Source: Sabellastarte sp. h YS-2021 (lineage: Eukaryota; Annelida; Polychaeta; Sabellida; Sabellidae). From it: 64,000 bases of DNA. The position numbers and the translations under genes are program-made. A model generated the notes under the pieces. That model did no database searches, was not told the DNA's origin, and saw nothing but the letters and a program-made list of their open reading frames with translations. Location of the stretch: NCBI GenBank assembly GCA_964017235.1, contig OZ024933.1:65020255-65084254 (forward strand), written 5' to 3'. This document shows, in pieces, positions 26,501 through 56,377 of the stretch; within the stretch, counting starts at the first letter, position 1; every line of letters begins with the position of its first letter.

Positions 26501-26835
26501 AATAGTTTCCAAGTTATAAGCGATTTACTCAACAGTGATAACCTAAAAGTAGCTATTACTCAGCTATGCCATGAGCTACAGGTCTGAAATTTTACTATGT
26601 TATAGCTGACCCAAAAGTAGCTGAATAACATATTTATACGAAATTCTCTAAATGCAATAGTTTTGAAGTTATAAGCGATTTACTCAACAGTGATAACCTA
26701 AAAGTAGCTAGTACTCAGCTATGCCATGAGCTACAGGTCTAAAATTTTACTATGTTATAGCTGACCCAAAAGTAGCTGAATAACATATTTATACGAAATT
26801 CTCTAAATGCAATAGTTTTTAAGTTACAAGTGATT
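23570..26835. repeat. 155-bp tandem array with 5-unit higher-order repeat, copy B
   Basis: About 21 units. The leading units match those that open the array in copy A, in order. The GCCACAGATCTG variant recurs at 25645 and 26420, exactly 775 bp (5 x 155) apart, so the higher-order period here is five units rather than eight. Confidence 0.9.
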
Positions 26836-27431
26836 TTACTCATAATGGAAGTTACTGAAAAGCCCAAAAGTAGCTATTACTCACTTAGCTATTGAGACAG
26901 GCACCCAACTTACTCACCATATTGTAGCTATGAAAAAAGTAGCTGAATAACATATTTTAACAAAATGCTCTAAATGCAACACTTTTCAAGTTATAAATGA
27001 TTTTGTGCATGATTTCATGAATTTTAATGCATTAAAAATTATTAAAAAAATTTATTAAAAAAAAAGTAAGACAGATCCAGGTCTCATACTCACACAAGAG
27101 AATCTACCTCTGGCCTAGTACATATATGCAAGATATGAGAGAAATCCCTGCAATAGTCACTGAGAAAATTGTGATTAAGTGTTGAAATTTTCACACTTTT
27201 GGTGGGGGTACCCCCCTTGTAATGTCTCTAGCAAACAGACGAACAGACAGATTTGCATGCCTTGAACAATTTTTCATCCTCGATAGATAAGGTATCTTTT
27301 AAAAAAAACAGCACATCTCTAGGCCTTGTAGTTTTGGAGGAGAAGTTGTTCACGCGGACGCGTACGCGTACGCCCACGCCGCAGAGTGACGACATAATGT
27401 CAGCTGACTGACAAGTCAGCTGACATAAAAA

Positions 27432-28021: not shown

Positions 28022-28071
28022 CATGTTAAACTTGGAAAATTTAATAGTAATTTAAATTTTTATTAGAAATA

Positions 28072-28244
28072 CTTACCATTTCCTAACAGTAGCTATTTGT
28101 TGGAGCCATCCAACCCAATGGCCAACGCAGAGATGCGATTTTAAGGTTATATAACCACCTTAATAAAGCCATTGGGTTACAGTAGTCCGTCCTCCCGCCA
28201 ATTAGGTCACCTGACCTCCTTTGTTTACCTCATTATTTTTGTTG
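28072..28244. repeat. DIRS-1 inverted terminal repeat, 3' side
   Basis: 173 bp, the exact reverse complement of 33572-33744. It begins CTTACCATTTCCTAACAG and ends TTATTTTTGTTG. Confidence 0.95.
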
Positions 28245-28289
28245 CAGGTAAAAGAATGACTTGCGGGGAGGCGGGAGGGAAATCCATGT

Positions 28290-28385
28290 GTTAGGAAATG
28301 GTAAGTATTTCTAATAAAAATTTAAATTACTATTAAATTTTCCAATTTTATAGCGAAATACCCTTACCATTTCCTAACAGTAGCT
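28290..28385. repeat. DIRS-1 internal complementary region
   Basis: 28290-28345 is the reverse complement of the element's left end (from about 28032), and about 28346-28385 is the reverse complement of its right end (to about 33762). They meet at CCAATTTT. In DIRS elements this region is thought to template end repair and circle formation before recombinase integration. Confidence 0.92.
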
Positions 28386-28903
28386 GAATGCAGCCTTGCA
28401 GGAAGGAGGGAATTCTTTTATTAAAACTTCCACCTACCAACAACAACAAGCAACATTGTGAGAACCAACAGTAAACATGACAATAGTGAAATGTACATGC
28501 AAACAGCAACACATACAATCCAACATACAAACATTCAACACAACAACATACCTTTTAAATGAAGGCAGTATGCAGTTGAACACTCTCACAATGCTCTGAA
28601 TCCACTAAATGCACTTGTTGAACAACATCTACTTTACAAACTGAACTAACATCAGGTCGAACCCCACTTGGTACCACTATCAGCTGACGCGTCATAAACA
28701 CCAAGTACGGTCCAAGCTACACAAACTGTACAATATATACAGGTCGACGCCGTCTATCCTGTAAAATACAGACAGATTAATAAATAAATTGTACCCATCA
28801 CAAAGTAAAATACAAACAGATTGGTTAATAATTGTATCCAACCCAAAGTATCAACTATTCACATATTCAAACACATAAAGTATTATACAGTTATAAAACC
28901 TAC
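28386..28903. other. DIRS-1 3' non-coding segment
   Basis: Lies between the internal complementary region and the recombinase stop codon. It has no open frame of note and probably serves as the 3' untranslated region of the element transcript. Confidence 0.6.
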
Positions 28904-29944
28904 TCATAAGTTTATAACATGCTGAGCAGATACTATTGGACCCAATTTCAAGATCTGACCATTATGCCAACAGAGGTCCTTAAGGTAGAAATTGGTAAAC
29001 GTATTGTGGGACTTCCAAAAGCATGCATCAAGAATCTCACTTAAGGAAACTCCTCCTTTAAAAGCCAAAGAAGCCGCCATAGAACGAACATCATGAGCTT
29101 TGACCTGACACAACTGCTGCGTTTCAGAATCCGACTCCTCATAAGCCAAAAGTATAGTCTGTTTTAGCCAAGAAGAGATTGTTGCCCTTGAAATATCTCT
29201 GGTAAAACCCTCCTTAATAGCTACAAACAAAAGATTCTTATTCTTCCTTAAATCCTTTGTTCTGTCCAAATAGTATTTCAAGGCCCTCACAGGACAAAGA
29301 GATCTATCTTGAGTCAAACTGCTGTCCAAATGAGGTTTGAGAGCTGGAATGACTACAGGTTTAATGACAGTAGGCCCATCTGACGCCAACTGGTTCTTTG
29401 CCAAAAAGGCAGTTGATGGAGCAATAGTTACTTGTGACCAACTTTCTTTGTAACTAAGAGAAGAGAAAGTCCAAGCATGAATTTCACCTCTTCTTTTGCC
29501 TGATGCCAAAGTCAAAAGGAAAACTGTCTTGAAGGTAAGCAACTTCAATGAAGCCTTCCCCAAAGGTTCAAAAGGTCGTTTAGTAAGAGCCTGCAAAACC
29601 AAGGCCAAATCCCAAGAAGGTATGGATCTATTAACCACTGGTTTGTCTCTGTAAAAACTTGACAATAACCTATTCAACTCAAGACTTTTTGACACATCTT
29701 CACCTTTCAAACCCAATCCATCAGCAATTGCTGTCCTGTAACCAGCAATAGTCGATGGCTTGAGAGCCTTCTCCTTAAACAAATAATTAAGGAAGTTTGC
29801 TATGTTTGGAATAGTGGGATCTGAGAAGTCCACCTGATTCTCCTGACACCACTTCCCAAATATGGACCACCTTGATTCATAGATTCTCCTCGAGGAGTGT
29901 CGCTGAGGCTCCTTAATTCGCTTCGCCACCTCCTCTGAGAATCC
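28904..29944 (-). CDS. DIRS-1 tyrosine recombinase (YR) domain
   Basis: Site-specific DNA recombinase that would integrate the circular DNA intermediate. Conservation with the second element starts at GFSEEVAKRIKEPQR (29944). From RIKEPQ (29920) the domain is 338 residues. The catalytic set is visible: Arg in SGKRRGEIHAW (residue 143 of the domain), His and Arg in AHDVR (276 and 279), Trp in FWKSHNTF (302) and the Tyr nucleophile in FTNFYLKDL (312). The domain's start overlaps the RT frame by about 145 bp. No ATG lies just upstream: the frame stays open back to 31846, with the nearest early ATG at 31804, and is in the same frame as gag, separated by one UGA. The true N-terminus is therefore uncertain; the protein may be up to ~980 residues or a gag-YR readthrough product. 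Confidence 0.9.
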   Translation of the reverse strand, partial: GFSEEVAKRIKEPQRHSSRRIYESRWSIFGKWCQENQVDFSDPTIPNIANFLNYLFKEKALKPSTIAGYRTAIADGLGLKGEDVSKSLELNRLLSSFYRDKPVVNRSIPSWDLALVLQALTKRPFEPLGKASLKLLTFKTVFLLTLASGKRRGEIHAWTFSSLSYKESWSQVTIAPSTAFLAKNQLASDGPTVIKPVVIPALKPHLDSSLTQDRSLCPVRALKYYLDRTKDLRKNKNLLFVAIKEGFTRDISRATISSWLKQTILLAYEESDSETQQLCQVKAHDVRSMAASLAFKGGVSLSEILDACFWKSHNTFTNFYLKDLCWHNGQILKLGPIVSAQHVINL

Positions 29945-32055
29945 TCTTGAACCTTCAGGACTGACTCCAGATGCCAAGCATGAAGGTTCAAATAAGCCAG
30001 ATTGCTGTGAAGTCTGTTGCTGAACGGTTGAGTCAACAGATTCACCCACAAAGGAAGCCTTAGAGGGAGTTTCGTGGACAGATCCACCAGATCCCAAAAC
30101 CAAGACATCCCTGGCCACCCTGGGGCAATCATGATTATCTTGCACCTGTAGGTGGTCATCTTTTGAATCACCTGCGGTATGAGAGCCACTGGACAAAACA
30201 CATAGGCGTCCAGACCCTCCCAAGAGATGTTCAATGCATCTGTTTCCCAAGCCCGACTGTCGGGGACAGGAGACACATACATTGGTAGCTTGTGATTCAA
30301 CTTTGTTGCAAACAAATCTACCATTGGTTGATGCCAGCAATGGCAAATTTGATTGAACACTCGATGATTCAAAGCCCATTCGGTCTGAATCACCTTGTCT
30401 TTTCTTGACAGAGAATCTGCCATGACACTGAGATTCCCTGGAATGTGTTTTGCCCGAATCTGGATCCCCCTGGCATTTGTCCAAGCCATGATTCTCCAGT
30501 TTAAGGCACACATTTCTTGAGAGTGGGTACCTCCCTGTTTGTTCAGATAGGCAACCACTGAAGAGTTGTCTGTGGAAATCAGCAGATTTTGATTCAGAAG
30601 CTGATTTTCGAATGATTTTAAAGCTAGAAATACTGCTTTTAGCTCTAGAATGTTTATGTGAAGTCTTGACTCCACCTGATTCCACAGACCACTGGCTGTG
30701 CGATGCCCTAAATGAGCCCCCCAGCCTTTTAGGGAAGCATCTGTGAATAGAAGGAGATTGCACTCCTTCTGATGAAGTGGAGAACCCCTCATCAGGTTTG
30801 AGAGATTGGTCCACCACTGAAGATGCTGTTTTAGAACCTGAGACACTGGTACTGGGATATCCAGAGACTGAGGATACCTCCAGTGTGTCTTGAGGTACCA
30901 TTGTAGAGGCCTCATATGCAGACGACCCAATGGTACAGTCTTCTCCATTGAAGCCATGCTCCCAATCAGTGACATGAGCTCCCTTGGAGATGTTTGAGTA
31001 GCTTTCAACATGGAAACTATCTTTTCTAGAAGGCGATCGATTTTCTTTTGAGTTGGAAACACAAGACCCACCCTGAGGTCGAATTTGTAACCCAAAAACT
31101 CGATTTCCTGAGTTGGAATTAAATCTGATTTTTCGAAATTTATTATCCAACCCAAGCTTTGAACAAGACGAATCAACCTGTGGGTATTCTCTTGGCATTG
31201 TTGCTTTGTTTTCGCTCTCATTAACCAATCGTCTATGTACTGATGAATCCTGATGCCCTCTGCAAGAGCCATCAGTTTCACCTCTTTTGCTACCATGGTG
31301 AACTCGAGTGGAGCCGTAGCGATTCCGAAGGGTAAGGCTGTGAATTGGTATGATCTGTCGCCTACATTGAAGCGAAGATACTTCTGAAACCGTGGGTGTA
31401 TTGGTATGTGAAAGTATGCATCTGTAAGGTCGAGAGAGGTTACCCACTCGCCTTCTTGCAGCGAATCTCGAATATTTTCGGCAGTTTCCATTTTGAAATT
31501 GGGTACATGTAAATAACTGTTTACCACACTTAAATCTATTACTGGACGCCACCTTTTTCCTGGTTTTGGTACAAGAAACAAACAACTGTAAAATCCCAGG
31601 GAAGTGACCTTTTGAACTGGAGTTATCGCTCTTTTGTCGATCATTTGATAAACCACCTTTATCAAGAACTGCTGTTTCTCCCGGTTCAAATATTTGCTCC
31701 TTATTAAAGGAATCTTTGTCAATGGAGGTTTTAGCCTGAAATTTAGACAATAACCCTCCTTCAAAATGGTCACTACCCTTGGATGTGCCCTCCTGGCTTC
31801 CCATACCTGCCAAAATGTGGATAAACGGCCTCCTGGCACCAAGCAGTCATTTCCTTCTCCCACCCCTGCCCCTGAAGGGTCTGGATGAGAAGGAACCTCT
31901 ACCTCTGTTACTAGTTGTGGAACTAGCTGCTGAGGAGTTGGTGGCAGAACTGTCATGATAGGGACGAAAAGACCTGTTCTGTGGCTTAGTGTCCCTCCTA
32001 TCCTCATGTCTAGTAGAGTGCTCCTTTCTAGGTTTGTAAGATTCTCTGTTAACAT
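29800..32055 (-). CDS. DIRS-1 reverse transcriptase / RNase H / Dam-like polyprotein
   Basis: 751 residues from ATG at 32055; starts within the last 209 bp of gag in another frame. It would copy the element RNA into DNA. Reverse transcriptase motifs: SLDLTDAY (207-214), LPFGIATAP (241-249) and the active-site YIDD (273-276). RNase H motifs follow: FTDAS with Asp439, LELKA with Glu471, STDNS with Asp496 and HIPGNLSVMADSLS with Asp547. The C-terminal part (VDLFA at 579 to APGWPGMSWFWDL at 644-656) resembles the Dam-methylase-like region typical of DIRS polyproteins. No frameshift or stop interrupts it. How translation reaches this frame (own ATG, frameshift or reinitiation) is not shown by the sequence. 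Confidence 0.94.
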   Translation of the reverse strand: MLTENLTNLERSTLLDMRIGGTLSHRTGLFVPIMTVLPPTPQQLVPQLVTEVEVPSHPDPSGAGVGEGNDCLVPGGRLSTFWQVWEARRAHPRVVTILKEGYCLNFRLKPPLTKIPLIRSKYLNREKQQFLIKVVYQMIDKRAITPVQKVTSLGFYSCLFLVPKPGKRWRPVIDLSVVNSYLHVPNFKMETAENIRDSLQEGEWVTSLDLTDAYFHIPIHPRFQKYLRFNVGDRSYQFTALPFGIATAPLEFTMVAKEVKLMALAEGIRIHQYIDDWLMRAKTKQQCQENTHRLIRLVQSLGWIINFEKSDLIPTQEIEFLGYKFDLRVGLVFPTQKKIDRLLEKIVSMLKATQTSPRELMSLIGSMASMEKTVPLGRLHMRPLQWYLKTHWRYPQSLDIPVPVSQVLKQHLQWWTNLSNLMRGSPLHQKECNLLLFTDASLKGWGAHLGHRTASGLWNQVESRLHINILELKAVFLALKSFENQLLNQNLLISTDNSSVVAYLNKQGGTHSQEMCALNWRIMAWTNARGIQIRAKHIPGNLSVMADSLSRKDKVIQTEWALNHRVFNQICHCWHQPMVDLFATKLNHKLPMYVSPVPDSRAWETDALNISWEGLDAYVFCPVALIPQVIQKMTTYRCKIIMIAPGWPGMSWFWDLVDLSTKLPLRLPLWVNLLTQPFSNRLHSNLAYLNLHAWHLESVLKVQEDSQRRWRSELRSLSDTPRGESMNQGGPYLGSGVRRIRWTSQIPLFQT

Positions 32056-33493
32056 GAGCCCAATGAATAAAATTCCTCTGGACTTCTGACAAAGTTTCTA
32101 CTGGAAAAACCTCATTAGGTGTGAATGAAGAATTCCTCAACTTGGAAATATCATCCTCTGTAACATCCTTTGAGCAATGTTTGAGGTAGTTATCTCTTCT
32201 ATTTAGCAATAAATTGGAGGACATAGTCATGGAACTCCCCAACAAAGACTCCAAAGACTTCCCCAATGACTGATTTATAGTGGCTTGGAGCTGCAAACAC
32301 TCCTGGACATATTCCATGGCATTATTGAAATCACCCTCAGACTGAGCAGATTTAATAATGCTGAATTGTTTCTCCATTTCCTCAGTAGACTTCATATTTG
32401 CAGAGTTGAACCAGAAAATGTGATTCAACACGTTAATATTTTCCCTGTTCACTGATTCCCATAAAGTATATTGCTTCAAGGGAGTTGAGACTGTAGTGGG
32501 AGCCTGAAACTGAGAGGAAGTTATATTCCTAAAGGCATCCTGTAGTTTAGGAGCTCCCAAAGCATGAGGTTGAGGAGTCATGTTGTACCATTTCATATTG
32601 GGCCTGTCAAAGTTCAAAAATTGACCCCTGGCTAGAGGATTTTTCCTGGAAGATTTATTCTTCATGTTATCTTGACCTTTGGAGATTCCAGAAGCCTCAT
32701 ACTCCTTGAAATCCCAAAGATTCACCATGTTCTCTGCTGGAGGTAAAGCAAGTGAAACCTGTGCAGACTTCTTGATTTTATGAGCTTGGGAGAACACAGA
32801 CGGAGCAATGATAGCATCAGTGTCAGTAATGTCAATGTCTAACCATTTTTTTACAGTTAACAAAGTGTCTGAATAGGAAGGACCTGGCTGTTTTTCCTCT
32901 TGAGATGAATCATATTCCCCATCTGAAATCTCGATTCTGCACCTTTTTGTAGGTACAGAAACTCGATTGTCATTACAGGGGTTTTCCTCCGCTGAACGTT
33001 TCGACTGGACCTCGACGGAAGCGTTTTCCGAAGAGATAGTCTTTTCTCTGCAATCGGAACTTCCCCTTGGAGACGCATCCAAAATGTCTGCTTGCATAGG
33101 GGAATCCCTCTTTTCTACCGCTGAAAGCCTGTTCGATATGGTTGTCAGTTGTGATAAAATTGCTGCCAATGCCTGGTTGTTAGAAGTCGAAGACTGAGCC
33201 ACATTTGTGACAGACGAATTGTCATCTTCATCCAAGATGGAATCGTCTATCCTGGGTTTTTCAACAGGAATTTCTTTTACAGATTTCTTCCCTTTTGAAA
33301 GTTTGGAATTAAGCTTACGCTTCTGATCCTCAGAGAAAGATGCACAAAGCAAACAGTCTTTCTTCAAAGCACATAAATCGTCTCCCTTACCAGTTTCTCG
33401 ACATTTATAACAATATCTATGGTTATCCCACCCAGGCATAAGGTGACCACAAGACGAAGATTTCTTCGCCTTATTGTCAGTGTTATTAGCCAT
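31847..33493 (-). CDS. DIRS-1 gag-like protein
   Basis: 548 residues from ATG 33493, about 270 bp inside the element's 5' end; the likely structural RNA-binding protein. An N-terminal cysteine/histidine cluster (Cys15, His17, His25, Cys28, Cys31, Cys41, Cys47, Cys50) around CRETGKGDD looks zinc-binding and is conserved in the second element. A charged, low-complexity middle follows. The C-terminus is Arg/Gly-rich (RGRGSFSSRPFRGRGGRRK), typical of nucleic acid binding. The stop is TGA at 31847-31849, followed by CTG. The same frame then stays open to the recombinase end. The RT frame begins at 32055, overlapping the gag tail. Confidence 0.88.
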   Translation of the reverse strand: MANNTDNKAKKSSSCGHLMPGWDNHRYCYKCRETGKGDDLCALKKDCLLCASFSEDQKRKLNSKLSKGKKSVKEIPVEKPRIDDSILDEDDNSSVTNVAQSSTSNNQALAAILSQLTTISNRLSAVEKRDSPMQADILDASPRGSSDCREKTISSENASVEVQSKRSAEENPCNDNRVSVPTKRCRIEISDGEYDSSQEEKQPGPSYSDTLLTVKKWLDIDITDTDAIIAPSVFSQAHKIKKSAQVSLALPPAENMVNLWDFKEYEASGISKGQDNMKNKSSRKNPLARGQFLNFDRPNMKWYNMTPQPHALGAPKLQDAFRNITSSQFQAPTTVSTPLKQYTLWESVNRENINVLNHIFWFNSANMKSTEEMEKQFSIIKSAQSEGDFNNAMEYVQECLQLQATINQSLGKSLESLLGSSMTMSSNLLLNRRDNYLKHCSKDVTEDDISKLRNSSFTPNEVFPVETLSEVQRNFIHWAHVNRESYKPRKEHSTRHEDRRDTKPQNRSFRPYHDSSATNSSAASSTTSNRGRGSFSSRPFRGRGGRRK

Positions 33494-33571
33494 ATTGAAG
33501 AATAAACCTCAATAAAAAAGCAAAGTCCCTGAAACTTTACCACTTCCAAAACACGTCCTACTGTTGATGGC

Positions 33572-33744
33572 CAACAAAAATAATGAGGTAAACAAAGGAG
33601 GTCAGGTGACCTAATTGGCGGGAGGACGGACTACTGTAACCCAATGGCTTTATTAAGGTGGTTATATAACCTTAAAATCGCATCTCTGCGTTGGCCATTG
33701 GGTTGGATGGCTCCAACAAATAGCTACTGTTAGGAAATGGTAAG
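33572..33744. repeat. DIRS-1 inverted terminal repeat, 5' side
   Basis: 173 bp, the exact reverse complement of 28072-28244; presumably contains the element promoter, since gag starts about 80 bp further in at 33493. Confidence 0.95.
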
Positions 33745-33807
33745 GGTATTTCGCTATAAAAACTAACTTTCACTTTGGTCATCCTGTTTGGTAAGAGATC
33801 ACTTATG

Positions 33808-44542: not shown

Positions 44543-45192
44543 TATTCTGTCAAAATATCTATCAGCCAAACCCTTTTAAGTAAAATTTCCCTTAAACTAC
44601 AAGCATAATATTCAGTCAAACTATTTATAAGCGAAGCTCATAAATTAGTAAAATTCCCTGTTAAACAGAACTAGAGTATTTCTTCGCAAGAGAAAAAGAA
44701 ATTGTTTTTACACAGCAAAACAAAGCACCATAATGAGTATTAAAGATTTTGTCCAAATGACTATCTTGCTCTGTTTAATATATATATATATATACATGTT
44801 TTTTCAATTTATGCAAAAATTCAACCTGCCTACAAAAAAATGGCAGGTAAAAAGTTTCTTGAAAGAAAGCATATACCCAGCAGACCAAAAATTTTGCACC
44901 GTTTCCGAGATAATTGCATTTTATAAAATGTATCAATATTTGTAATTATAGATTGATAATTTAACAAGCAGGAATATTTCTAATGATTGCAATTGGTCTA
45001 TTGCTAACATCTGACACAATCTTAATAATATAACTTTGTGATTTGGTTGGTTATAAAAAATAACAGGCTATTTAACTGCATGATATATAACATAAGTGGG
45101 ATCTTTTAAATTTTATTCTTATAACTATCAATCTTGAAAAATAATTGTCAATTAAGCAATGTGTACATTTCATGTGTACATTAAGCTAAATT
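44543..45192. other. Non-coding stretch, nothing recognised
   Basis: AT-rich, with a (TA)n run near 44780-44793; a 70-codon frame at 44733-44945 looks like chance. Confidence 0.4.
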
Positions 45193-45233
45193 TGTAAATT
45201 TTAATTACTTAAATGTAGCTTTTATAAGCTACA

Positions 45234-45382
45234 AGCTTATCATGTGGGACTTAATGCTGTTCTCGGGTTGCCACACCCGGGGCCAACGTCTTAGAAAAAA
45301 AGATCGTTCTTGTTAGCCACCGGATATACTGGTAGTTGTCGTCACGTGATAAGTTCTGACCAATCGCCCTACTTTCTCGTTG
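45234..45382. repeat. DIRS-2 inverted terminal repeat, 3' side
   Basis: 149 bp, reverse complement of 54252-54400 with two substitutions (T/C near 45240; G/C at GATAAGTTCTGACC). Confidence 0.93.
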
Positions 45383-45441
45383 AAATTTTATTAAACCTAC
45401 CCCTCAGCTGTAAACAGCGGGGAGGCAGGGTGGGACTCTTC

Positions 45442-45546
45442 TAAGTCCCACATGGTAAGCTTGTAGCTTATAAAAGCTACATTTAAGTAATTAAAATTTA
45501 CAATTTTATTACGCTACAATAGCTTACCATGTGGGACTTAATGCTG
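45442..45546. repeat. DIRS-2 internal complementary region
   Basis: 45442-45501 is the reverse complement of the element's left end (one mismatch), followed directly by the reverse complement of its right end up to TTAATGCTG (45546). They meet at TTTACAATTTTATT. Confidence 0.9.
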
Positions 45547-45913
45547 AATTCAACCGCCCGGTGGCGGGATTACAGCTGAGACTGGAAGATATGTAATTTT
45601 TTTCTAAGATTTGAATTAATATATATACAGAATAGTGCCAGAAATGCCAGTCTGAGTCCCTTTTACAGAGCCCCGATCCCGAAGATCGGGCCTGTAACGA
45701 GCCAAAAACCTGAGTAAAAAGGGAAAGTGCTAAAACTGTCCAGATGTTTGGTAGTAGGACGGAAGTGCAGCAGTGCTCACTTCGAGGTCTAAGGGTCCCT
45801 ATTAGACCTTCACGTGTGACTGACCAACCCAGTGGTTGGGCATCTCATGAAATTTTTAACCTGAAATATGAGATTAATGACAACCTTAATAACCTTAATA
45901 ACCTTAATAGAGA
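45547..45913. other. DIRS-2 3' non-coding segment
   Basis: Contains a CCCGATC/GATCGGG hairpin (45672-45690, 5-base loop) and three tandem AACCTTAAT units (about 45884-45910). Either may be a 3' untranslated signal; no function is proven. Confidence 0.5.
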
Positions 45914-47092
45914 TTACCTGATAATTAAAAAATAAAATGACCTTACCCGTAACATCTTGAAGGTAAAGGAATACCTAGATCCTGGGAGAGACTCCTGAAG
46001 ACTTGGTTGTAGCGGATGTGCCCCCCCCCCCCCCCCCCCCCCTTTTTCTTTCCGAGGACAACTGGTCTGAGGGGAAGAATCTAGGACTTGTTGTGCCGCC
46101 ACCATGGGTCCCAGATACATATTGTTGTCGGTGTCCGACCAAGTAAGGTCTTTTAGGTAAAAATTTGTGAATGTGTTGTGAGCTTTCCAGTGACAGGCTT
46201 GCATGATTTGGTCCACCGATACGCCACCGTAAAAGGCCTTAGAGGCCGCTAAGGCCCGGATGTCATGCACTTTGACTTGGACCAAGTCCAAGGCTTGTTG
46301 ATCTGCTTGTTTATAACAAAGTAGAATGGTTTGTTTCAACCATGAGGAGAGTGTAGCGGGTCTGATGTCTGAGGTATGTCCTTTCTTAAAGGAGATGAAA
46401 AGGAGAGAACGAGACCCTCTCAGGTCTTTAGTTCGGTCCAAATAGAACCTCAGGGCCCGCACGGGACACAGGGTCCTGTCTTCTTTAAACTGTCTATCTA
46501 CAATGGTAGTCAAAGCAGGAATAGTCACTGGTGACACACTTTGAGAACCTTCTCTTGCTAGTTGGTTTTTGGCTATGAAATCAGAAGAAGGGAACAAGGC
46601 TACCTTTTCCCATTGGCCTAAATTAGCTACTTTGTTAGCGACCCAGGCATGGATTTCGCTGCGGCGCTTGCCGGAGGCCAAGGCTAGCAAGAAAGCAGTT
46701 TTGAGAGTAAGATGTTTGAGGTCTGAGTCTTTCATGGGCTCAAATGGTGCTTTGGTGAGCTCGTTAAGGACAACAGAAAGGTTCCACTTGGGTAAATTTC
46801 TGGAACTTTTTGGACGATCCCTGTGAAAACTGGAGAGTAACCTATGAAGGTCTGCATTGTGCGCAATGTGTTGGGCCGTTGGGCCCAAAGTGTCAACGAT
46901 AGCAGTCCTGTAACCATCAATGGTCGAGGGGCGCCTGTTTAGGTCTTGGTACAGGTACATGAAAAAATCTGAGATTTGTTTCACAGATGGAGTGGAGAAA
47001 TCCACCGAATTTTCTCTGCACCATTTTTCAAATAGGGCCCACTTTGACCGGTAGATGGTCCTTGTTGATGACCGCTGAGGGGCAGCAATTCT
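45914..47092 (-). CDS. DIRS-2 tyrosine recombinase (YR) domain
   Basis: From RIAAPQ (47092) the domain is 392 residues and aligns closely with the first element's. Catalytic Arg lies in SGKRRSEIHAW (143), His/Arg in VHDIR (276, 279), Trp in HWKAHNTF (302) and Tyr in FTNFYLKDL (312). All are present and the frame is open, so this gene itself looks undamaged. A run of 22 C on the plus strand (46021-46042) encodes a poly-glycine tract after residue ~350. The sequence beyond it (to the stop at 45914) has no counterpart in the first element and may result from slippage. The frame is also open upstream to the nested insertion at 47623. Confidence 0.88.
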   Translation of the reverse strand, partial: RIAAPQRSSTRTIYRSKWALFEKWCRENSVDFSTPSVKQISDFFMYLYQDLNRRPSTIDGYRTAIVDTLGPTAQHIAHNADLHRLLSSFHRDRPKSSRNLPKWNLSVVLNELTKAPFEPMKDSDLKHLTLKTAFLLALASGKRRSEIHAWVANKVANLGQWEKVALFPSSDFIAKNQLAREGSQSVSPVTIPALTTIVDRQFKEDRTLCPVRALRFYLDRTKDLRGSRSLLFISFKKGHTSDIRPATLSSWLKQTILLCYKQADQQALDLVQVKVHDIRALAASKAFYGGVSVDQIMQACHWKAHNTFTNFYLKDLTWSDTDNNMYLGPMVAAQQVLDSSPQTSCPRKEKGGGGGGGAHPLQPSLQESLPGSRYSFTFKMLRVRSFYFLIIR

Positions 47093-47621
47093 CTCTGCCA
47101 CCTCCACAGAGAAGCCTTGTTCTTGGAGTTGTCCGCTCCTAGACACCAGGCGTGGAGGTTCAGCTGTTGTGGATTGTTGTGGAACACATAGTTGTGGGAC
47201 TGTTTGAGTAGGGTCGTTGACACTGGGAGTTGTAGTGGGATCTCTGTTGAGAGCTGCACTAGGTCCCAAAACCAGGGCATCCCTGGCCAGCCTGGGGCTA
47301 TCACGATGATCAGGCAATGACATTGCTTGATCTTTTGGATCACCTTGTGAAGGAGAGCCGTAGGAGGGTAGGCGTAAGCCGTGAGGTTGGTCCAGTTTAT
47401 GTTCAGAGCATCTATGTTCCAGGCCCTTGGGTCTGGGATAGGAGACACATATAGAGGGAGTTTGTGATTCAGGTGAGTAGCGAATAAGTCTACATGAGGG
47501 GTGAACCACTTTCGGCAGATTTGCTTGAAGACCTGAGGGTGCAGGGACCATTCTGTTGACTGCACTTGGTTGGACCTGGATAGGAGGTCGGCCATCACAT
47601 TCAGACACCCTGGAATGTGCC
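46981..47621 (-). pseudogene. DIRS-2 RT/RNase H polyprotein, 3' part
   Basis: C-terminal part cut off by the nested element. It holds the end of RNase H (HIPGCLNVMADLLSR) and the Dam-like region (VDLFATHLNHKLPLYVSP to APGWPGMPWFWDL), both close to the first element. It lies in frame with the 5' part once the nested element and one copy of its TG duplication are discounted, so the insertion is the break. The stop at 46981 lies in the YR overlap. Confidence 0.88.
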
Positions 47622-47689
47622 TGCCCCTGCGAAATATTGTTCAAGACTTCATGGACTGTGGTGAACAATTTTGAACAGATTAGAACGTT

Positions 47690-48260
47690 CAACATCCATT
47701 CAATAAATTTTTGAAAGAGAAGTTCAAGAACACTTGTTCAATACAGTTCAATAAGATAGTTCTGGAACACATATTTAACATTGTTGAAATGAATATGGTT
47801 CAATATAGTTCAATAAGACAGTTCTGGGACAGTTTTTGAACTTTGTTGAACTGAATATTGTTCAATATATTTCAACAAGATAGTTCTGGGACACTTTTTG
47901 AACATTGTGGAATTGAATAATGTTCAAAAAAGTTCAACAAGACACTTTCCAGGGCATTTTTTGAACTTTCTTGAATTGAATATTGCTCAATATAGTTCGA
48001 CAAGATAGTTCTGGGACACTTTTTGATTTTTGTTGAATTGAATATTGTTCAATATAGTTCCATAAGACAGTTTTAGGACACTTCTTGAACTTTATTGAAT
48101 TGAATATTGTTCAATATAGTTCAACAAGACAGTTTTAGGACATTTATTGAACTTTATTAAATTTAATATTTTTCAATATAGTTCATCAAGACTGTTTTTG
48201 GACACTTTTTGAAGTTTGTGGAATTGAATATAATCCTTGTAGAACATGTTTTGAACCTTT
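47690..48260. repeat. 62-bp tandem array at the left of the nested element
   Basis: Roughly eight to nine degenerate units, each with TTCAATATAGTTCAACAAGA, CAGTTCTGGGACAC and TTTTTGAACTTTGTTGAA. Starts of the GTTCTGGGAC/GTTTTAGGAC block lie about 60-63 bp apart (47821, 47883, 48008, 48069, 48130). Confidence 0.85.
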
Positions 48261-49429
48261 TTGAACTGAGTGTTTGCCAAAAAAAAACCTTGGTTAGCAT
48301 TTTAAAAATACAGCTGACATACTTTTTTTATGTAAACCAAAGAGTATGATAGCAAAGTGAATCATACTCAATAGATAATAGAAAGTATTATAAATATAAC
48401 TTGATGACAATTAAATCTGTACTTAGTTATAAATGTTTATTTTATGGCACATATTTTTGGAATCCCTATTTTTATCTTACCCTAAACACAATATATCTGC
48501 TAATGTAATAAGATACACTATTTATAGCACATTGTAGTTTGCTTCAAATGTGATTACTTTTATTCGGGATTGATTGAATCAGCTATTTATACTGAGAACA
48601 AAAATGCAAGTGTCACTGAAAGAACCTCAGAAATGCTTACCTACATCTCAAAGACAGCCTTTCTATTGGCTTTAAGATACACTCCAAGTTATTTGTCTCT
48701 TTGTTTAGAAAAAATCCTTCAGATTTGACAAGGAATGTCCATATGATTATCTGTATTATAGTAAGTGTATATCAACTGACCCTGTATATTTTGAAAAATT
48801 ATCAGATCGATATACAATTATTTTATAACCATAACTGTGACAGTCAGAATCCAGGCTATCTGAATGGTTATCAGAACAAACAAAGTGTGTAGAATCTAAT
48901 GTTTTTGTACTGGCCATGGGTGTCCATGCAGAGTTTGGAATTCTTGAGATAAGCTTATTGCCAGATGACTCCTGATTGGATGGTTTGAAAAAGAGAAACC
49001 TTTTCTTTGTTTATGGGGAAAGGTTGAAAGTTTAAACAGTTATATTAGAGTTGAGTGAATATAGGAGTTGACCCATGCATTTTGAACATCAATTTTTTTA
49101 AATTTGGATAAAATATGTCTTACTTGTTGAAGTGGATTTTGGAAGGATTGTATGGAGTGATATCTTATAAAGTAATTATAAACCCAAGAAAGGAGCTTAG
49201 TCAGTGTTGTGTAGAGAAAATGTGGAAGCTAAGTTCTGGAGGGAAATTGTTGTATCCAGCAAGATAATAAAGATACTGGGTAAGTTTACAATTTTACAAC
49301 TTATAATGTGTTCTTATCTTTTGAAAAAGCACATTTTCTTTCTTTTTAGTCTTCAACAGTGTTTTGCTTAGAACTGAGATTTTACATTGCGTTTTGTTTT
49401 CTTATCTAATATTTGCAATTTCTGGTTAT

Positions 49430-50440
49430 CTTTTATAATAATTATCTTGAACAATGTTGAACTACTGGTGTTCTATAAATATATAAATTTATAGAACATT
49501 TTAGAACAGAACATTTTGGAACTGTTTTGAATCTCATTCAGATATTTATCTTGAACAATGTTGAACTGGTTCAACAACTGGTTCTATAGGTATTTTGATT
49601 TATAGAACATTTTAGAACTGTGTTGAACCTTTTTAAAATAATTTTCTTGAACATTGTTGAACTACTGGTTCTACAAATATTTTGATTTGTAGAACATTTT
49701 GGAACAGAACATTTTAGAATTATTTTGAACCTCTTTTGGATAATTATTTTGAACATTATTGGACTACTTGTTCTATAAATACCTTTATTTATAGAACATT
49801 TTGGAACAGAATGTTTTAGAATTGTTTTGAACATCATTCAGATAATTATCTTGAACAATGTTGAACTACTGGTTCTATAAATATTTTGCTTTGTAGAATG
49901 ATTGGTACAGAACGTTCTTTAACAAAAGTTTTTCTGAACTTTATTGAACTGCCAAAGAGTGCCATTTCATGTTCTCACACATCTTAGAACGTTCTTGAAT
50001 CATTTGTTGAACACTTTATGGACAGTATTAAACAACTTTCTTGAACATTGTTGAACTACTGGTTCTACAAATATTTTGATTTGTAGAACATTTTAGAACA
50101 GAACATTTTAGAATTGTTTTGAACCTCTTTTAGATTATTATTTTGAACATTATTGAACTACTTGTTCTATAAATACCTTTATTTATAGAACATTCTGGAA
50201 CAGAATGTTTTAGAATTGTTTTGAACATCATTCAGATAATTATCTTGAACAATGTTGAACTACTGGTTCTGTAGATATTTTGCTTTGTAGAACGATTGGT
50301 ACAGAACGTTCTTTAACAAAAGTTTTATGAACTTTATTGAACAGCCAAAGAGTGCCATTTCATGTTCTCGCACATCTTAGAATGTTCTTGAATCATTTGT
50401 TGAACACTTTATGGACAGTATTGAACACTGTTCAAGAACT
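49430..50440. repeat. 100-bp hairpin-unit array and 390-bp duplication in the nested element
   Basis: Units of ~100 bp each contain TTGAACATTGTTGAACTACT, then GTTCTATAAATA and its complement TATTTATAGAAC separated by about 4 bases (for example 49770-49797, a perfect 12-bp stem). Hairpin starts lie near 49470, 49581, 49669, 49770, 49872, 50062, 50163 and 50265. A larger block is duplicated with ~390-bp spacing (about 49846-50028 and 50236-50418). Confidence 0.85.
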
Positions 50441-50496
50441 GCACTAGAACTGTTATTGAATGTTCTGGAACAGTTCAACAACATTTCGCAGGGGTG

Positions 50497-52160
50497 GCTT
50501 TCAATGTTATATGGTAGTGATGGCACCAGGTCATGATTTTCCACAGGAGAGCGCACATCTCTGCTGAGTGAGTTCCCCCTTGCTTGTTGATGTAGGCTAC
50601 CACTGTTGAGTTGTCCGTCGCAACTAACACTGTTTGATTCTGGCACTGGTCCTTGAAGTCTCGAAGGGCCAGGGAGACCGCCTTCAATTCTAGGACATTT
50701 ATGTGTAGCCTTTTTTCCCGCTCTGACCACAGCCCTTTTGTAGAATTTTGATCTAAGTGAGCGCCCCAACCTTCGTTTGAGGCGTCGGTAAAGAGTTGGA
50801 TACTGTGGTCCTTGGGATGAAGGTCTGAGCCTTTCATCACATTTGAGGGATTTTGCCACCAATCTAGGTGGGCTACAATGGCTTCTGTCCAAGGAAGGAG
50901 GTTGTCCAGCGACTGAGGATATCTCCAGTGCTCCTTGAGATGAAACTGAAAGGGCCTCATGTGAAGGCGTCCCTCCGGGACCATTTTCTCCGTTGAGGCT
51001 AGCAACCCAATTAGAGACATCAAACATCTTGCAGTCAAAACACGTTTTGACTTGAGTCGTAGGATCAAATCCTGAAGTTTGAGCCATCTCTCGTGAGTGG
51101 GTATAACAAGGGCTGAATCTAGGTGGTATTCGTAGCCCACGAACGAAAACACCTGAGTAGGTTTCAGTTCTGATTTTTCCTGGTTGATTATCCAACCCAA
51201 GGATTGGGTTAGGTCTACCACTGCCTGTGTGTCCCTTTGAGATTCCTCCTGGGACTGGGACCTGATCAGCCAGTCGTCCAGGTATTGGTGAATTCTGAGT
51301 CTTCTCGAGAGGGCCATTAGTTTCACTTCCTTTACAATCATCGTAAAGACCTGGGGGGCTGTGGCCAGTCCGAAAGGTAGGGAGGTGAACTGGAACACCT
51401 GGGCCTTGTAGCAAAACCTTAGGTACTTCCTTGAGTTGGGATGGATGGGGATGTGAAGGTATGCGTCTGACAGGTCTATTGACGATACCCACTCCCCTGG
51501 GACCAGGGAAGTCCGGATGGACTCCGGGGTTTCCATTTTGAACTTTTCTACATGTAGAAAAGTGTTGAGCCTGCTTAAGTCTATGACTGGCCTCCACCTT
51601 TGGTGAGGCTTGGGTACTAGGAACAGGCGACTGTAAAACCCGAGAGATTTTACGTTTTCCACCCTTTCGATAGCGTTCTTTGACAAGAGAGACTGGATAC
51701 AAGTGGCCAAGGCTTGGTCTTTTTGTTGGGCCTTGTACTCTGATAGAATCAGAGGAAATCTGATCAAGTTTGGCTTTGAACGGAATGGCAGAACGTAGCC
51801 ATTGGTGATAATGTTTAACACGTTTTGAGAACATTTGTTTGTTAGCCAGTCTCTCTTGAAAGAACGGAGGCGACTTCCTACTGGTGGACTGAATGAGGCT
51901 TTGGAGGAGTCATTGCGAAGGGGGGTTTCCACGCCCCCTTCCTCTGTTGTGGGGTCGAAAACGACCCCTGGAGCCTCTGAAGTTGGATTTTCCTCTTCCC
52001 GAGGGAAAGGATTGGTTACTGCTTTGAGAGGTATTGCCCCCATATGGGCGTTTCCTGTAAGAGCCTCTTTTCTTGTGGGGGCCATGAAAGGGCTTATTCT
52101 GGTAGGGTGCAAAGCCCTGAGAATCCTTTGAGGTGCCTTTTTTGAGAAGGAAGTCCTCAC
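50497..52160 (-). pseudogene. DIRS-2 RT/RNase H polyprotein, 5' part
   Basis: About 554 residues of a polyprotein that would be ~768 long, cut at the nested element. Reverse transcriptase motifs are intact (SSIDLSDAY, LPFGLATAP, active-site YLDD), as are the first RNase H motifs (FTDAS, LELKA, ATDNS). Everything before the break is open. The frame overlaps the last 251 bp of gag. The open frame begins at a GTG; the true start is unknown. It would copy element RNA into DNA, but is non-functional as it stands because the nested element adds foreign residues and a stop. Confidence 0.9.
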
Positions 52161-54026
52161 CTTCCTTTACAAGTTGAGACTCGAACAAGGAGGGGTCCCA
52201 GAAGGACGAGTTCCTAAGTTCTTGGCGTCTCGTTTCCCCTAGCTGGGGATGCAATAGAGTCATTTCGGCTTCGCGCCTAAGCAAGCCGGTATTAGCCATG
52301 GAATATAATTCCCTCTGGAGAATATGGGCTAGCGATTTGCTGAGACAGGTAAGAGCTCTATGTTGAACAAGAACAGTCTTGTTCCAAAAATCCAAGTACT
52401 CAGCAACTTCCTCATATCCGCGCTTTGCTGCTTTCTCAGGATTGGCACCTTTCTGGATCTGAGATTTAATCTTCTTGACAGTTGACTTGATGCTATGTTG
52501 ACACTTCTCCAAGGAAGCATTGCAAGAAGAAGAGGTTTTGGCAAAGGCAGCGGTGAAATTGAGGGTTGAGATATTTTGTCTAGCCTGATGTTCCAGCTCC
52601 TTAAGGACTGGCATAGGGACTTTGGCTACTGGTGCCCCAGGAGGTCTAGGAGTAATACAGATCTTGGCAAAGTCTGTATTCAACTCTTGGATTTTGTCTT
52701 GAAAAGTGGGCTGTCCGACCTTGTACCACTTAGAAGTGGAAGGAGGAGGCTTGACATATTTTCCCTCAGATAAATTGGCAGCTTTGAAATCATGTTGAAA
52801 TTTATCAAAGGCGTCCTTGATAACTGAGCTAAGTGGTAGGATAGAGGAAGGACCTCTAGGTCTGAGCTCTTGACGGCCTTTTTCGTCATCCAGACCCAAT
52901 ACTGAAGTTGAAGACCTAGGCATAGAGTCCCTGGGGTCAGGGAGAGAAAGAATGCGCCTGAAGGTGTCTACCTCTTCAGAGTATTGGGAGGGAATGTCAG
53001 ACAGGGCTACTTCCCTATAATAAGGGGGGTCTGGATCATGTTGTGGGAGGTCTTGATCAGAAGCTGCGCCTGAGGGCTGAGCCCTAGAGGGCTTAGAAGA
53101 CCTGTGTCTAGCCACAGGGGAGTGATCTTCCTCTGAAGATGACACATATCTGGACCTAGATTTATGCTTGCTCTTGTCAGAGTGTTTCTTAGGTCTAGGA
53201 TGGATCCGAGATTCGTCGGAATCCTCATACAGATGATCCGAGGCAGAGCTCGGTGTAACTGTTTGTCTGTGGCTTTGTTATTTATGTGAGTACGAGGAAT
53301 CCTTCGGTATTGCTTCAGAAGGGGCAACGTACTGATCCGAGGAGGTTTGATTTAGTACTAGACGAGGAGGGAGTGCTGGACCAACGGAGGGGGTAGGTCC
53401 AGATGAGCAGCAGAGTTGCTGGATGGACCAGCTTTAGAAGCATGAGGCGAGGGATCAACCTCGGCAGATTTTTTAACTGCTAACTCCTCTCGGAGTGATT
53501 GAAAAGCTTCTAACATGGACGCCTGAAAGGAACCCATTTGCTGCTGGATATGTATATTTAAGGAATCACCCAGGGATTTCTCTAGATTTCTTTGAATTTT
53601 GTTTTGTAAAACAGTACCTGGGGTGGGAGGAACAGCCTTGGCTGGGGTCTTTAGTGATAGAGAACTGAAGGCGAGAGGTTGAGGACGGGGGGGTGAGGTA
53701 AACAGGTTATTGGCAGCACTCTCAAGGTCTGCATTAGAACCATTAAAAGAGTCCCCATCGCCTTCACCCAAGAGATCTAGTTCATCTTTGGAACTAGTTT
53801 CCGCTTTTTGCTTTTTTAAGTACCGCTTCCTGTTTTGAATCTTTTGTAATTGTTCATCAGAGAGAGACGTACAAATATGGCAGGGCGCTTCAAAGGTGAC
53901 ACAGGGGTCATCTCCCTTGCCAGCCTCCCTACAGGTAGGGCAGTAATTATGAGTATCAAAACTGAAGCAAAAATGGCGGCATTTCTGAGCTCTCGGTTTG
54001 TCTTTGTTTGCTTGATGAAGGGACAT
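51910..54026 (-). pseudogene. DIRS-2 gag-like gene, frameshifted
   Basis: Starts at ATG 54026. The N-terminal cysteine/histidine cluster matches the first element (conserved HNYCPTCREAGKGDDPC, then CHIC). The first frame ends at a stop at 53358. Similarity of style resumes in another frame, open at 51910-53277, so there is an indel near 53340-53400; a further TAA lies in the second frame at 53278-53280. The C-terminus is Arg/Gly-rich (RGSRGRFRPHNRGRGRGN). The final TGA (51910-51912) is followed by CTC, and the same frame then stays open into the YR frame, as in the first element. Confidence 0.85.
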
Positions 54027-54251
54027 TTTAACGCAATAAAAAGACGTACAATTAAGATTGCCTGAACCGAGAAAACTCAAAACACGCGGATTGTAAGGAA
54101 ACTACTTAAGCTGTGAAATTAAAAATTTTACAGGATAATCTATGACATATATTTAAAGAAATATCCAAATATTAGCCTCCAACAATACGTGAATACTGAG
54201 AAATAAATGAAAATGTCTGTATATTTACAAACTGCTACCAGTCATCGTGGC

Positions 54252-54400
54252 CAACGAGAAAGTAGGGCGATTGGTCAGAAGTTATCACGTGACGACAACT
54301 ACCAGTATATCCGGTGGCTAACAAGAACGATCTTTTTTTCTAAGACGTTGGCCCCGGGTGTGGCAACCCGAGAACAGCATTAAGTCCCACATGGTAAGCT
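54252..54400. repeat. DIRS-2 inverted terminal repeat, 5' side
   Basis: 149 bp, reverse complement of 45234-45382 with two substitutions. Confidence 0.93.
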
Positions 54401-54420
54401 ATTGTAGCGTAATAAAATTG

Positions 54421-56377
54421 GAGGTTTTTACTGTACTCAGATTTTTAACACTTCTCAATCCAAATTAAACTCTCTAGTGTGGACACTCAACCCGGTTTGA
54501 GATAAATCTGCTTCAACCCTCAATCCTTGAGAACTCGGAATGTAGTGTGAACAGGGTAATTATAAGTACTCTGAGGTTCATCTCAAATGCAACCTTTTTT
54601 GGTCAAAAGAGTATTGGGTTCAGCTTTTATGAGGGGCTAAGTACTAAGCTGTATTAAAAACCTGTACCACTGCCTGTTGTTTTATAGATGTATTGCAATG
54701 AAGCAACGCCAAACTAGGTCAAACAACTTGAGTGTTACATGGATTTCATACACAGAAAATATAAATTAATAGACAGGTATTAGTATTTTAGAGTGCTAAC
54801 AAGTTTTAAAGAGTAGAATTATATTTAAGCTAACAGCTATGGCCTTTTAACATCTTAATGTCAGCTGGGCATACCACACCCAGCAGGAAAATGGGTGAAA
54901 GTGGATGAACATGTTCATAATTTTCTTAAAAGTTGTGACATTTTGAGTTGTGATATCACAATGTAAATGGAGATCAGGTAGTTCTAACACAACAAAGTAA
55001 CAATAAACATTATTAAAACATAGACATAGTCAAGCATTCTTAAAATTATGAAAAGTCCAAAAAGGTGATCCTGGTAGGATTACAAACTGCCTGCTTTCAG
55101 GTGATTTGCCCCAACAGTTTTGTGCAGTCCAAATATCTGGGGTGACACAGATTCTAAAATAAGCTAATCATATATTTTATGAAGCAATATGACAAGTGTT
55201 CAGACTTTAAAGACCAATTTCCAGTTTGGGTTATATTAGAACATTTTATCGGAAAATTGTGAAAATGAACTTTTTAGCCCGTCAACAAATGAGATATTAA
55301 ATCAGTAATTTAGGGTGCAAGAGCCATAAGGAAAGGCAAAGAAAGTCTCTGAGATGGATAAAACAGAAGGATTTGTATCTTCCTGTTTACTTGCACTCAT
55401 TACAGTAAGAAACACCAAATCTGCTACAGTATGTAAAATTTACTACCAAGCAACAGACCTTAATTCACTTTGAATTTAGGGGAAATTTAATCAAATTTGT
55501 GATTTTTGTGGCAAATTTTGAACATATACGAAAGTTGTTATATATTTGGTGTTATTTGTTTTCATTTTTGTTTAATGTTTACTGTGTAGCCCCGAGTGGG
55601 GAGTTAAACTCACTGTGGCAAATTTTACATTGAATACCGTATCATGGATTGGGGATCACAATAAAAGAATAATTAACAACTCCTCATACTGTGAAAGGCC
55701 ACAGATGACACAGTAGGGGAATTTAAGGGTGAATAAGGACACTTGTTCAAACTGAACAAGTTCATACTATTTACAACTTTTCATTTTAACACCTACAACA
55801 CTGCTTTTTAAGCAGCAATTTTTGGTTTTGGGGTACTGCCACTTAATTAAAATGTTTTTTTAAAAAAAAAAGACTTTACTAGTTTACGAATGATGAAAAT
55901 GAGTGGAACAACAACACCAGTGGGAAATATCACTCATGGCTAGGTAATGTACTAGCTTTAAGGTCTTTCAGTCAATGTGCTTCAAGCATCCCAACGAAAA
56001 TGCAGGAGAGATGTGCTTCTTGTAAAAAAAGGACAACAAATTAAGGTATTGTTATCATTTAAGTTGGATTTCAAAGGAAAAACACTGATTAAAACAAGAA
56101 AATTTAGATAACAGGGTAAATTTCAATTGAAAATACTACAAGGACCTTTTTTCTATTTCTATATGAAAGAAAGGTCTTTTTATTTGATCTACATAGCAAT
56201 ACATCATGTCATGTCAGAATTACCTTGATTTCAAAATACAAGCACTTATTGAGTCAACTGACACTTCACCAAATCTAGTGACCACTTAACGTAACCATGT
56301 GCCATTTTTAGAACAGGTGTATATTTAAGAGACATATATCTTTCTGACATTCTCTGGGATCTTCTTTTATCACTCAC
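54421..56377. other. Likely intron sequence
   Basis: AT-rich, no trusted coding segment. Near 54470-54560 the motif TAGTGTGGACAC and later TAGTGTGAACAGGG resemble MITE ends, but they are not inverted and no element could be bounded. Confidence 0.35.

Follow-up and report, generated by a model that had tools for sequence, protein, structure and literature searches.

A DIRS1-like element with gag and recombinase in one frame

We analysed a 64,000-nucleotide stretch (hereafter the window) of contig OZ024933.1, positions 65,020,255 to 65,084,254, from the annelid Sabellastarte sp. h YS-2021, whose genome measures 1.79 Gb. The window contains two DIRS retrotransposons, E1 and E2. Our subject is the junction between gag and the tyrosine recombinase (YR) gene, where a single UGA stop codon interrupts an otherwise continuous reading frame and probably serves as a site of programmed readthrough. 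All features of E1 and E2 given below lie on the minus strand. Published work is cited for the portions of each paper that were available to us.

Judged by its sequence, E1 (28027..33761) is a complete DIRS1-like retrotransposon, with inverted terminal repeats, internal complementary regions, a reverse transcriptase (RT)/RNase H and a tyrosine recombinase. The left terminal repeat (33572..33744, 173 nt) is 100% complementary to the right one (28072..28244). The internal complementary regions (28289..28385) overlap at the presumed circular junction: 28289-28350 pairs with 28027-28088 (62 nt) and 28346-28385 with 33722-33761 (40 nt). The gag open reading frame (ORF; 31850..33493) encodes 548 amino acids with an Arg/Gly-rich tail and ends in UGA (31847..31849) followed by CUG, as the initial annotation had it, and then CUU. 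Past this candidate readthrough site the same frame continues for 980 codons (28907..31846) to a terminal stop at 28904..28906, which reads UGA-GUA and not UGA-C; the gag UGA is the lone in-frame stop strictly between 33511 and 28906. Readthrough would thus give a product of 548 + 1 + 980 = 1,529 residues, in agreement with the roughly 1,530 first estimated. The RT was also correctly placed in an overlapping frame: it is open from 32097 to 29803 (29803..32097), lies +1 relative to gag, shares ~250 nt with gag, and past the gag stop overlaps the YR frame throughout.

The RT frame of E1 matches RVT_1 (1.3e-22) and RT_RNaseH (6.1e-6) and has the Y[IL]DD motif. From position alone, a methyltransferase domain is presumed to follow RNase H; that stretch gave no Pfam or NCBIfam match. 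The YR frame overlaps RT over its first ~585-680 codons, where few residues are conserved; the remainder, with a domain beginning near codon 690, is the tyrosine recombinase. Single-protein Pfam searches of YR gave matches below the cut-off, and a profile built from E1, E2 and the related copy L048 matches Cre chains (E 0.002-0.01). The E1/E2 alignment of YR contains conserved Arg, HxxR and Tyr positions, which we take to be the catalytic residues. No relatives of the RT were found in the viral_contigs or genome_contigs collections.

E2 (45187..54428) is a diverged DIRS element with the same layout as E1, gag and YR being in one frame and RT in +1. Its inverted terminal repeats (149 nt) are 99% complementary, and its internal complementary regions form pairs of 67 and 54 nt. 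The gag stop, UGA followed by CUC CUC, lies at 51910..51912. The YR frame consists of a first part of 471 codons without a stop that overlaps the E2 RT (50496..51909) and a second part that includes the recombinase (46079..47626). An AT-rich tandem-repeat insertion (~47640-50470), with units of 62 bp and 102 bp, interrupts the element.

We collected further copies from the genome in two ways. E1-like copies came from a gag search (81 matches listed), from which 50 copies were cut, E1 included. Other groups were found with an RT active-site pattern that required GAT-GAY, itself a UGA in the YR frame; the loci obtained in this way (L051-L074, among which L071-L074 are longer cuts of L062, L066, L063 and L056, respectively) carry a YR-frame UGA by selection, and the sample leans to decayed copies. 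They include a third group (L071, L072 and decayed relatives), whose RT is 53-55% identical to those of E1 and E2 and whose gag is ~25% identical to that of E1. RT identity between the three groups is 53-55% throughout, and four-fold degenerate sites are near saturation (0.23-0.33 identical vs 0.24-0.26 expected). Gag and YR share one frame in E1, the E1-related copies L048-L050, E2, L071 and L072; in L071 and L072 this frame is split by a single UGA, besides the UGA at the Asp-Asp site that the sampling pattern demanded.

The recombinase frame is kept free of stops through the RT gene

We compared the number of YR-frame stops within the RT gene with that in synonymously shuffled sequences. 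The 682 RT codons past the gag stop of E1 contain none, whereas 2,000 synonymous shuffles contained 22-54 (mean 39.8); the third frame has 64 stops against a shuffle mean of 57.5. E2 likewise has no YR-frame stops in its two parts, against shuffle means of 17.8 and 7.4, and L071 and L072 have 1 each, that demanded by the sampling pattern, against 30.0 and 39.2 expected. The avoidance can be traced to single bases. At RT third positions where a T, standing before a codon that starts with AA, AG or GA, would create a YR-frame stop, T occurs at 2/551 sites in E1, L048, E2, L071 and L072 combined, compared with 805/1,980 other third positions (Fisher P = 1.8e-102, for five elements that are related and hence not independent). 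Both exceptions are the Asp-Asp sites of L071 and L072 required by the sampling pattern. T use in the gag and YR-only controls is 50/122, 60/125 and 24/51. Since the same layout recurs in three groups whose silent sites are near saturation, selection must have held the YR frame open in each of the three lineages, mostly without conserving its residues, as far as can be read from the sequences.

What selection keeps in the spacer between gag and the recombinase domain appears to be openness for the most part, not sequence. Where the frames overlap, most differences between E1 and L048 affect the third position of RT codons, which is the first position in YR; in the YR-only part they fall on YR third positions. 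Identity between the E1 and E2 spacers exceeds that of independent synonymous recoding with a z of 3.6 in the RT part and 6.5 nearer YR. Residue-level selection across the whole spacer, which we considered as a further signal, was weak, residue conservation being gained only toward YR.

In group 3, just past the UGA, the YR frame of L071 (2031-2297) and L072 (1958-2290) encodes 16 Cys each, compared with maxima of 12 and 14 in 3,000 recodings of the RT frame, and an aligned block in this segment is kept in L071, L072 and L061. No Pfam match was found in the longer stretches of L071 and L072 scanned. Because changes in the group-3 segment ahead of RT are spread about equally over all three codon positions, the Cys excess is suggestive only, and a protein function of the segment is possible.

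The gag stop is UGA-C in all three groups

The gag stop context is conserved both in the copies sampled and in genome-wide counts. In group 1, UGA-CUG is present in 50/50 E1-like copies cut (E1 and three copies from a family with only 71% gag identity included), and genome-wide pattern matches have UGA at 47/47. In group 2, UGA-CUC-CU occurs at 2,079/2,102 E2-type sites. In group 3, 2,320 of the 2,462 genome sites matching AGTCNTAYAAAUGAC read UGA-CARYYA (a reversed control puts ~77 of the 2,462 down to chance), as do 6/6 recognised gag ends of sampled copies. Among 23 group-3 sites, found with a pattern that itself demanded ARYYA, the hexamers are CAAUCA (10), CAAUUA (6), CAGUUA (6) and CAGCCA (1); when the stop was not specified, 25 sites had UAA or UAG, compared with 18 for the control.

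Gag ends were recognisable by homology in 12/20 of the loci L051-L070, and all 12 are UGA-C, followed by CARYYA in six (L053, L060, L061, L062, L066, L068), CTC-CTN in five (L051, L052, L056, L058, L069) and CTG in one (L063). The other eight have no trusted gag end: L054, L055, L059 and L067 offer no candidate, L057 has a doubtful tail with TGA-A, L064 a decayed group-3-like tail with TAG, L065 a doubtful TAA, and L070 candidates of both TAA and TGA-C type, all doubtful. Where the YR frame terminates, none of the stops checked is UGA-C (UGA-GUA in E1 and L040; UAG-CUA, UAA-UCU, UAA-GUU and UAG-UAG elsewhere).

The gag stops can be compared with known readthrough contexts. Type I contexts (CARYYA) occur here in group 3 only and are absent from E1 and E2; CARYYA is able to promote readthrough at UGA and UAG alike (PMC3542737). 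Type II contexts (UGA-CGG or UGA-CUA with a 3' structure) were not found, E1 and E2 having UGA-CUG and UGA-CUC without structure beyond that of shuffles. The initial annotation had called UGA-C the leakiest stop context. It does belong to the leaky class, but the UGA-CUG of E1 differs from the context reported as strong in humans, UGA-CUA(G) (PMC4359377, PMC12233894). A pair of adenines 5' of the stop, examined as a possible signal, occurs in E1, E2 and group 3; 29/50 E1-like copies, however, have AAG there, and the importance of 5' AA is disputed (PMC9841425).

Ribosomes probably enter the recombinase frame by readthrough

We propose that programmed readthrough takes place at the gag stop. 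The majority of ribosomes would terminate at UGA-C and release Gag; a minority would insert an amino acid at the UGA and carry on translating the same frame, across the RT gene and into the recombinase. The product would be a low-abundance Gag-spacer-YR protein, 1,529 aa long in E1, and the fusion could carry the recombinase into the particle. The sequences establish that gag and YR form one frame with one UGA-C between them and that stops have been selected against in three near-saturated lineages; from this we infer readthrough as the entry step, the existence of the fusion and the delivery of recombinase. Production of a Gag-spacer-YR fusion by UGA-C readthrough is, in our judgement, likely, and the interpretation first given to this junction is to that extent supported.

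Recombinase translation could instead initiate at its own AUG soon past the gag stop, through reinitiation or internal entry. The first in-frame AUG of E1 indeed stands at codon 15 (31802..31804) in a good context, GGTATGG, and the L048 family also has one at codon 15. Its position varies between elements, however: codon 15 in E1, L048 and L040, 26 in E2, 34 in L072 and 183 in L071. The 182 codons before the L071 AUG hold 0 stops where 9.07 are expected, and 0/4,000 shuffles were stop-free; translation should therefore enter at or before this stretch, and what lies upstream in the same frame is gag. In E1 and E2, moreover, an out-of-frame AUG overlaps the stop (AUGA) and would capture reinitiating ribosomes first. 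We therefore regard initiation at a separate AUG, which had been named as an alternative from the outset, as quite unlikely, and in L071 it leaves the open frame unaccounted for. The accompanying remark that YR has no ATG nearby holds for the domain (the AUGs are at codons 15, 217, 316, 490 and 923) but not for the frame as a whole, whose codon-15 AUG follows the stop.

Splicing is another possible route. If a short intron spanning the gag UGA were removed, so that gag or a leader was joined to the YR frame near its start, the fusion would arise without readthrough, and the YR frame would have to be open all the same. In E1 a fair candidate donor is found right past the stop (31807, CAGGTATGG), and the gag tail contains acceptor-like sites. 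In E2, by contrast, the best candidate donor is 249 nt upstream of the stop, and none of the E1 sites listed corresponds to it. In a comparison based on splice weights and limited to E1 and E2, no splice-like site common to both was found near the stop; the AUG position is not common to them either. Splicing would leave unexplained why the bypassed stop is UGA-C, or why CARYYA follows it in group 3, and a splice that skips the whole RT is hard to square with openness across RT. This second alternative from the initial annotation is, in our view, quite unlikely.

Several observations weigh against readthrough at the gag stop. The stop-free stretch before the first AUG is decisive in L071 only; elsewhere the probability of finding no stop there by chance is 0.70 (E1), 0.54 (L048), 0.72 (L040), 0.11 (E2) and 0.07 (L072), and the codon-15 AUG of E1 is well placed. 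The hexamers of E1 and E2 (CUG-CUU, CUC-CUN) are not among the known strong signals, though they are of the leaky UGA-C class. No stable RNA structure was found past the stop (z 0.54 in E1, -0.09 in E2, 0.66 in L071, -1.18 in L072 and -0.03 in L048). The RT frame reads AAU GAC across the junction, and this coding overlap with UGA-C could help to conserve it; the copies behind the genome-wide counts are related and so do not represent independent events. In the yeast retrotransposon Tca2, a gag-UGA-pol junction alone was insufficient for readthrough in a yeast reporter (PMC2194720). Finally, many copies depart from the expected layout. A premature YR-frame stop is present in 12/20 full-length E1-like copies; gag is in the RT frame in 3/12 sampled loci (L058, L060, L063) and in the third frame in another 3/12 (L053, L061, L068); and only 2 among the six group-3 copies sampled are in frame.

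We read the frame mismatches as decay, because the sampling pattern holds a YR-frame UGA and many of these loci have RT stops too. Gag is in the YR frame in 6/12 sampled loci (L051, L052, L056, L062, L066, L069). The expectation that related copies would keep gag and YR in one frame is thus borne out by the intact or near-intact members of three diverged groups, but by only half of the further sampled copies. Among full-length E1-like copies, 8/20 have a complete YR frame (977-980 codons). In L001-L030 (L001 being E1), for which 499 codons are visible past the stop, YR is open in 26/30 and RT in 21/30.

RT may be reached from the same stop

All three groups have RT in +1 relative to gag. In neither E1 nor E2 is there an AUG able to start the full RT between the gag stop and the conserved RT start; RT-frame AUGs are present inside the gag tail. 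In reporters, UGA-C raised +1 shifting and readthrough alike (PMC9841425), and RT could plausibly arise when ribosomes slowed at this stop slip by +1, either on it or immediately ahead of it. All of this would also fit a UGA-C that acts as a +1 frameshift site for Gag-RT alone, with the YR frame entered in some other way. Such an arrangement would not account for a YR frame that is open from the gag stop on, and neither an antizyme-type UCC before the UGA nor a stable structure past it was found. The openness of the RT frame within gag proved uninformative as a guide to the frameshift window; the overlap of gag and RT upstream of the stop is not clearly beyond chance (P(0) 0.05 to 1.0), and no shift site was located. 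We consider a frameshift without readthrough highly improbable.

Readthrough and frameshifting may be combined in a wider scheme, which we offer tentatively and would not call probable. One UGA-C would act as a three-way switch, stopping yielding Gag, readthrough Gag-YR and a +1 slip Gag-RT, so that a single site would set the ratio of coat, recombinase and polymerase. The RT gene would for that reason be written in two frames, the second mainly a stop-free passage, and one lineage would have grown a Cys-rich module in the segment made by readthrough only.

Relation to known recoding systems

Overlap of pol and YR is already known in DIRS elements. The DIRS1-like elements of Piednoel et al. 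2011 (PMC3266345) and of Xenopus (PMC9210276) have, as here, three ORFs, inverted terminal repeats and internal complementary regions, and in their YR frame, which overlaps pol, the catalytic part occupies the 3' end beyond the overlap. By our own count of Table 3 in PMC3266345, 16/28 elements are marked Yes for a long overlap; its text says 'half'. The term 'stop codon' occurs 0 times in these two papers, and unlike here no common gag/YR frame or recoding is described in the portions available. What appears to be new is the gag-YR junction, with a putative readthrough fusion to a different enzyme and an overprinted RT. In the DIRS literature searched we found no mention of readthrough from the gag stop into YR; the presumed founding descriptions lie outside this coverage, and a report may exist in print.

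Gammaretroviruses of the murine leukaemia virus type likewise fuse an enzyme to Gag by readthrough of an in-frame stop (PMC5009743, PMC3542737). They use UAG-G with a pseudoknot and the product is Pol (PMC3542737), whereas here the site is UGA-C without evident structure, it is the recombinase that would be fused, and the stretch to be read through contains the RT gene in a different phase. Group 3 resembles the type I readthrough of tobamoviruses and benyviruses in having UGA-CARYYA right past gag; natural type I cases are generally UAG (PMC3542737), and E1 and E2 lack CARYYA. In Tca2 of Candida albicans, ribosomes must likewise get past a UGA between gag and the next ORF, but those ORFs are gag and pol, and the available portion of the report mentions no second gene within an overlap (PMC2194720).

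The passages on DIRS elements available to us note the long ORF overlap without accounting for translation of the recombinase, and the junction described here offers a testable account. If it is right, entry of ribosomes into the YR frame at the gag stop is the reason for the overlap, and this is a Gag-enzyme readthrough system that holds a second frame of a 2-kb gene clear of stops chiefly to let ribosomes pass. With thousands of sites and three stop contexts in one genome, it would be a natural test case for the evolution of readthrough signals.

Divergent copies and neighbouring sequence

With 19,455 or more exact matches to the RT motif HQYxDDW, 1,900 with GAT and 17,555 with GAC at the Asp-Asp site (the GAC pattern was two bases longer), the genome is very rich in DIRS elements. 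The GAT form may reflect decay, as GAC-GA contains CpG. In the L048-L050 family, the L048 RT is 94% identical to that of E1 and its gag only 74%, which could come from either gag exchange or fast gag evolution. Among 90 E2-type RT matches listed, 9 sit in open frames of >1,100 aa, which suggests that E2-type copies exist with gag and RT fused into one frame. L063/L073, a decayed copy full of stops, has gag and RT in one frame across UGA-CUG, either as a family state or through a deletion, and L074 has most of gag in the RT frame, switching near a G run in the gag tail. Adjoining E1, a tandem array of a 155-bp satellite occupies 24000-26937 of the window (examined from 24000 on).
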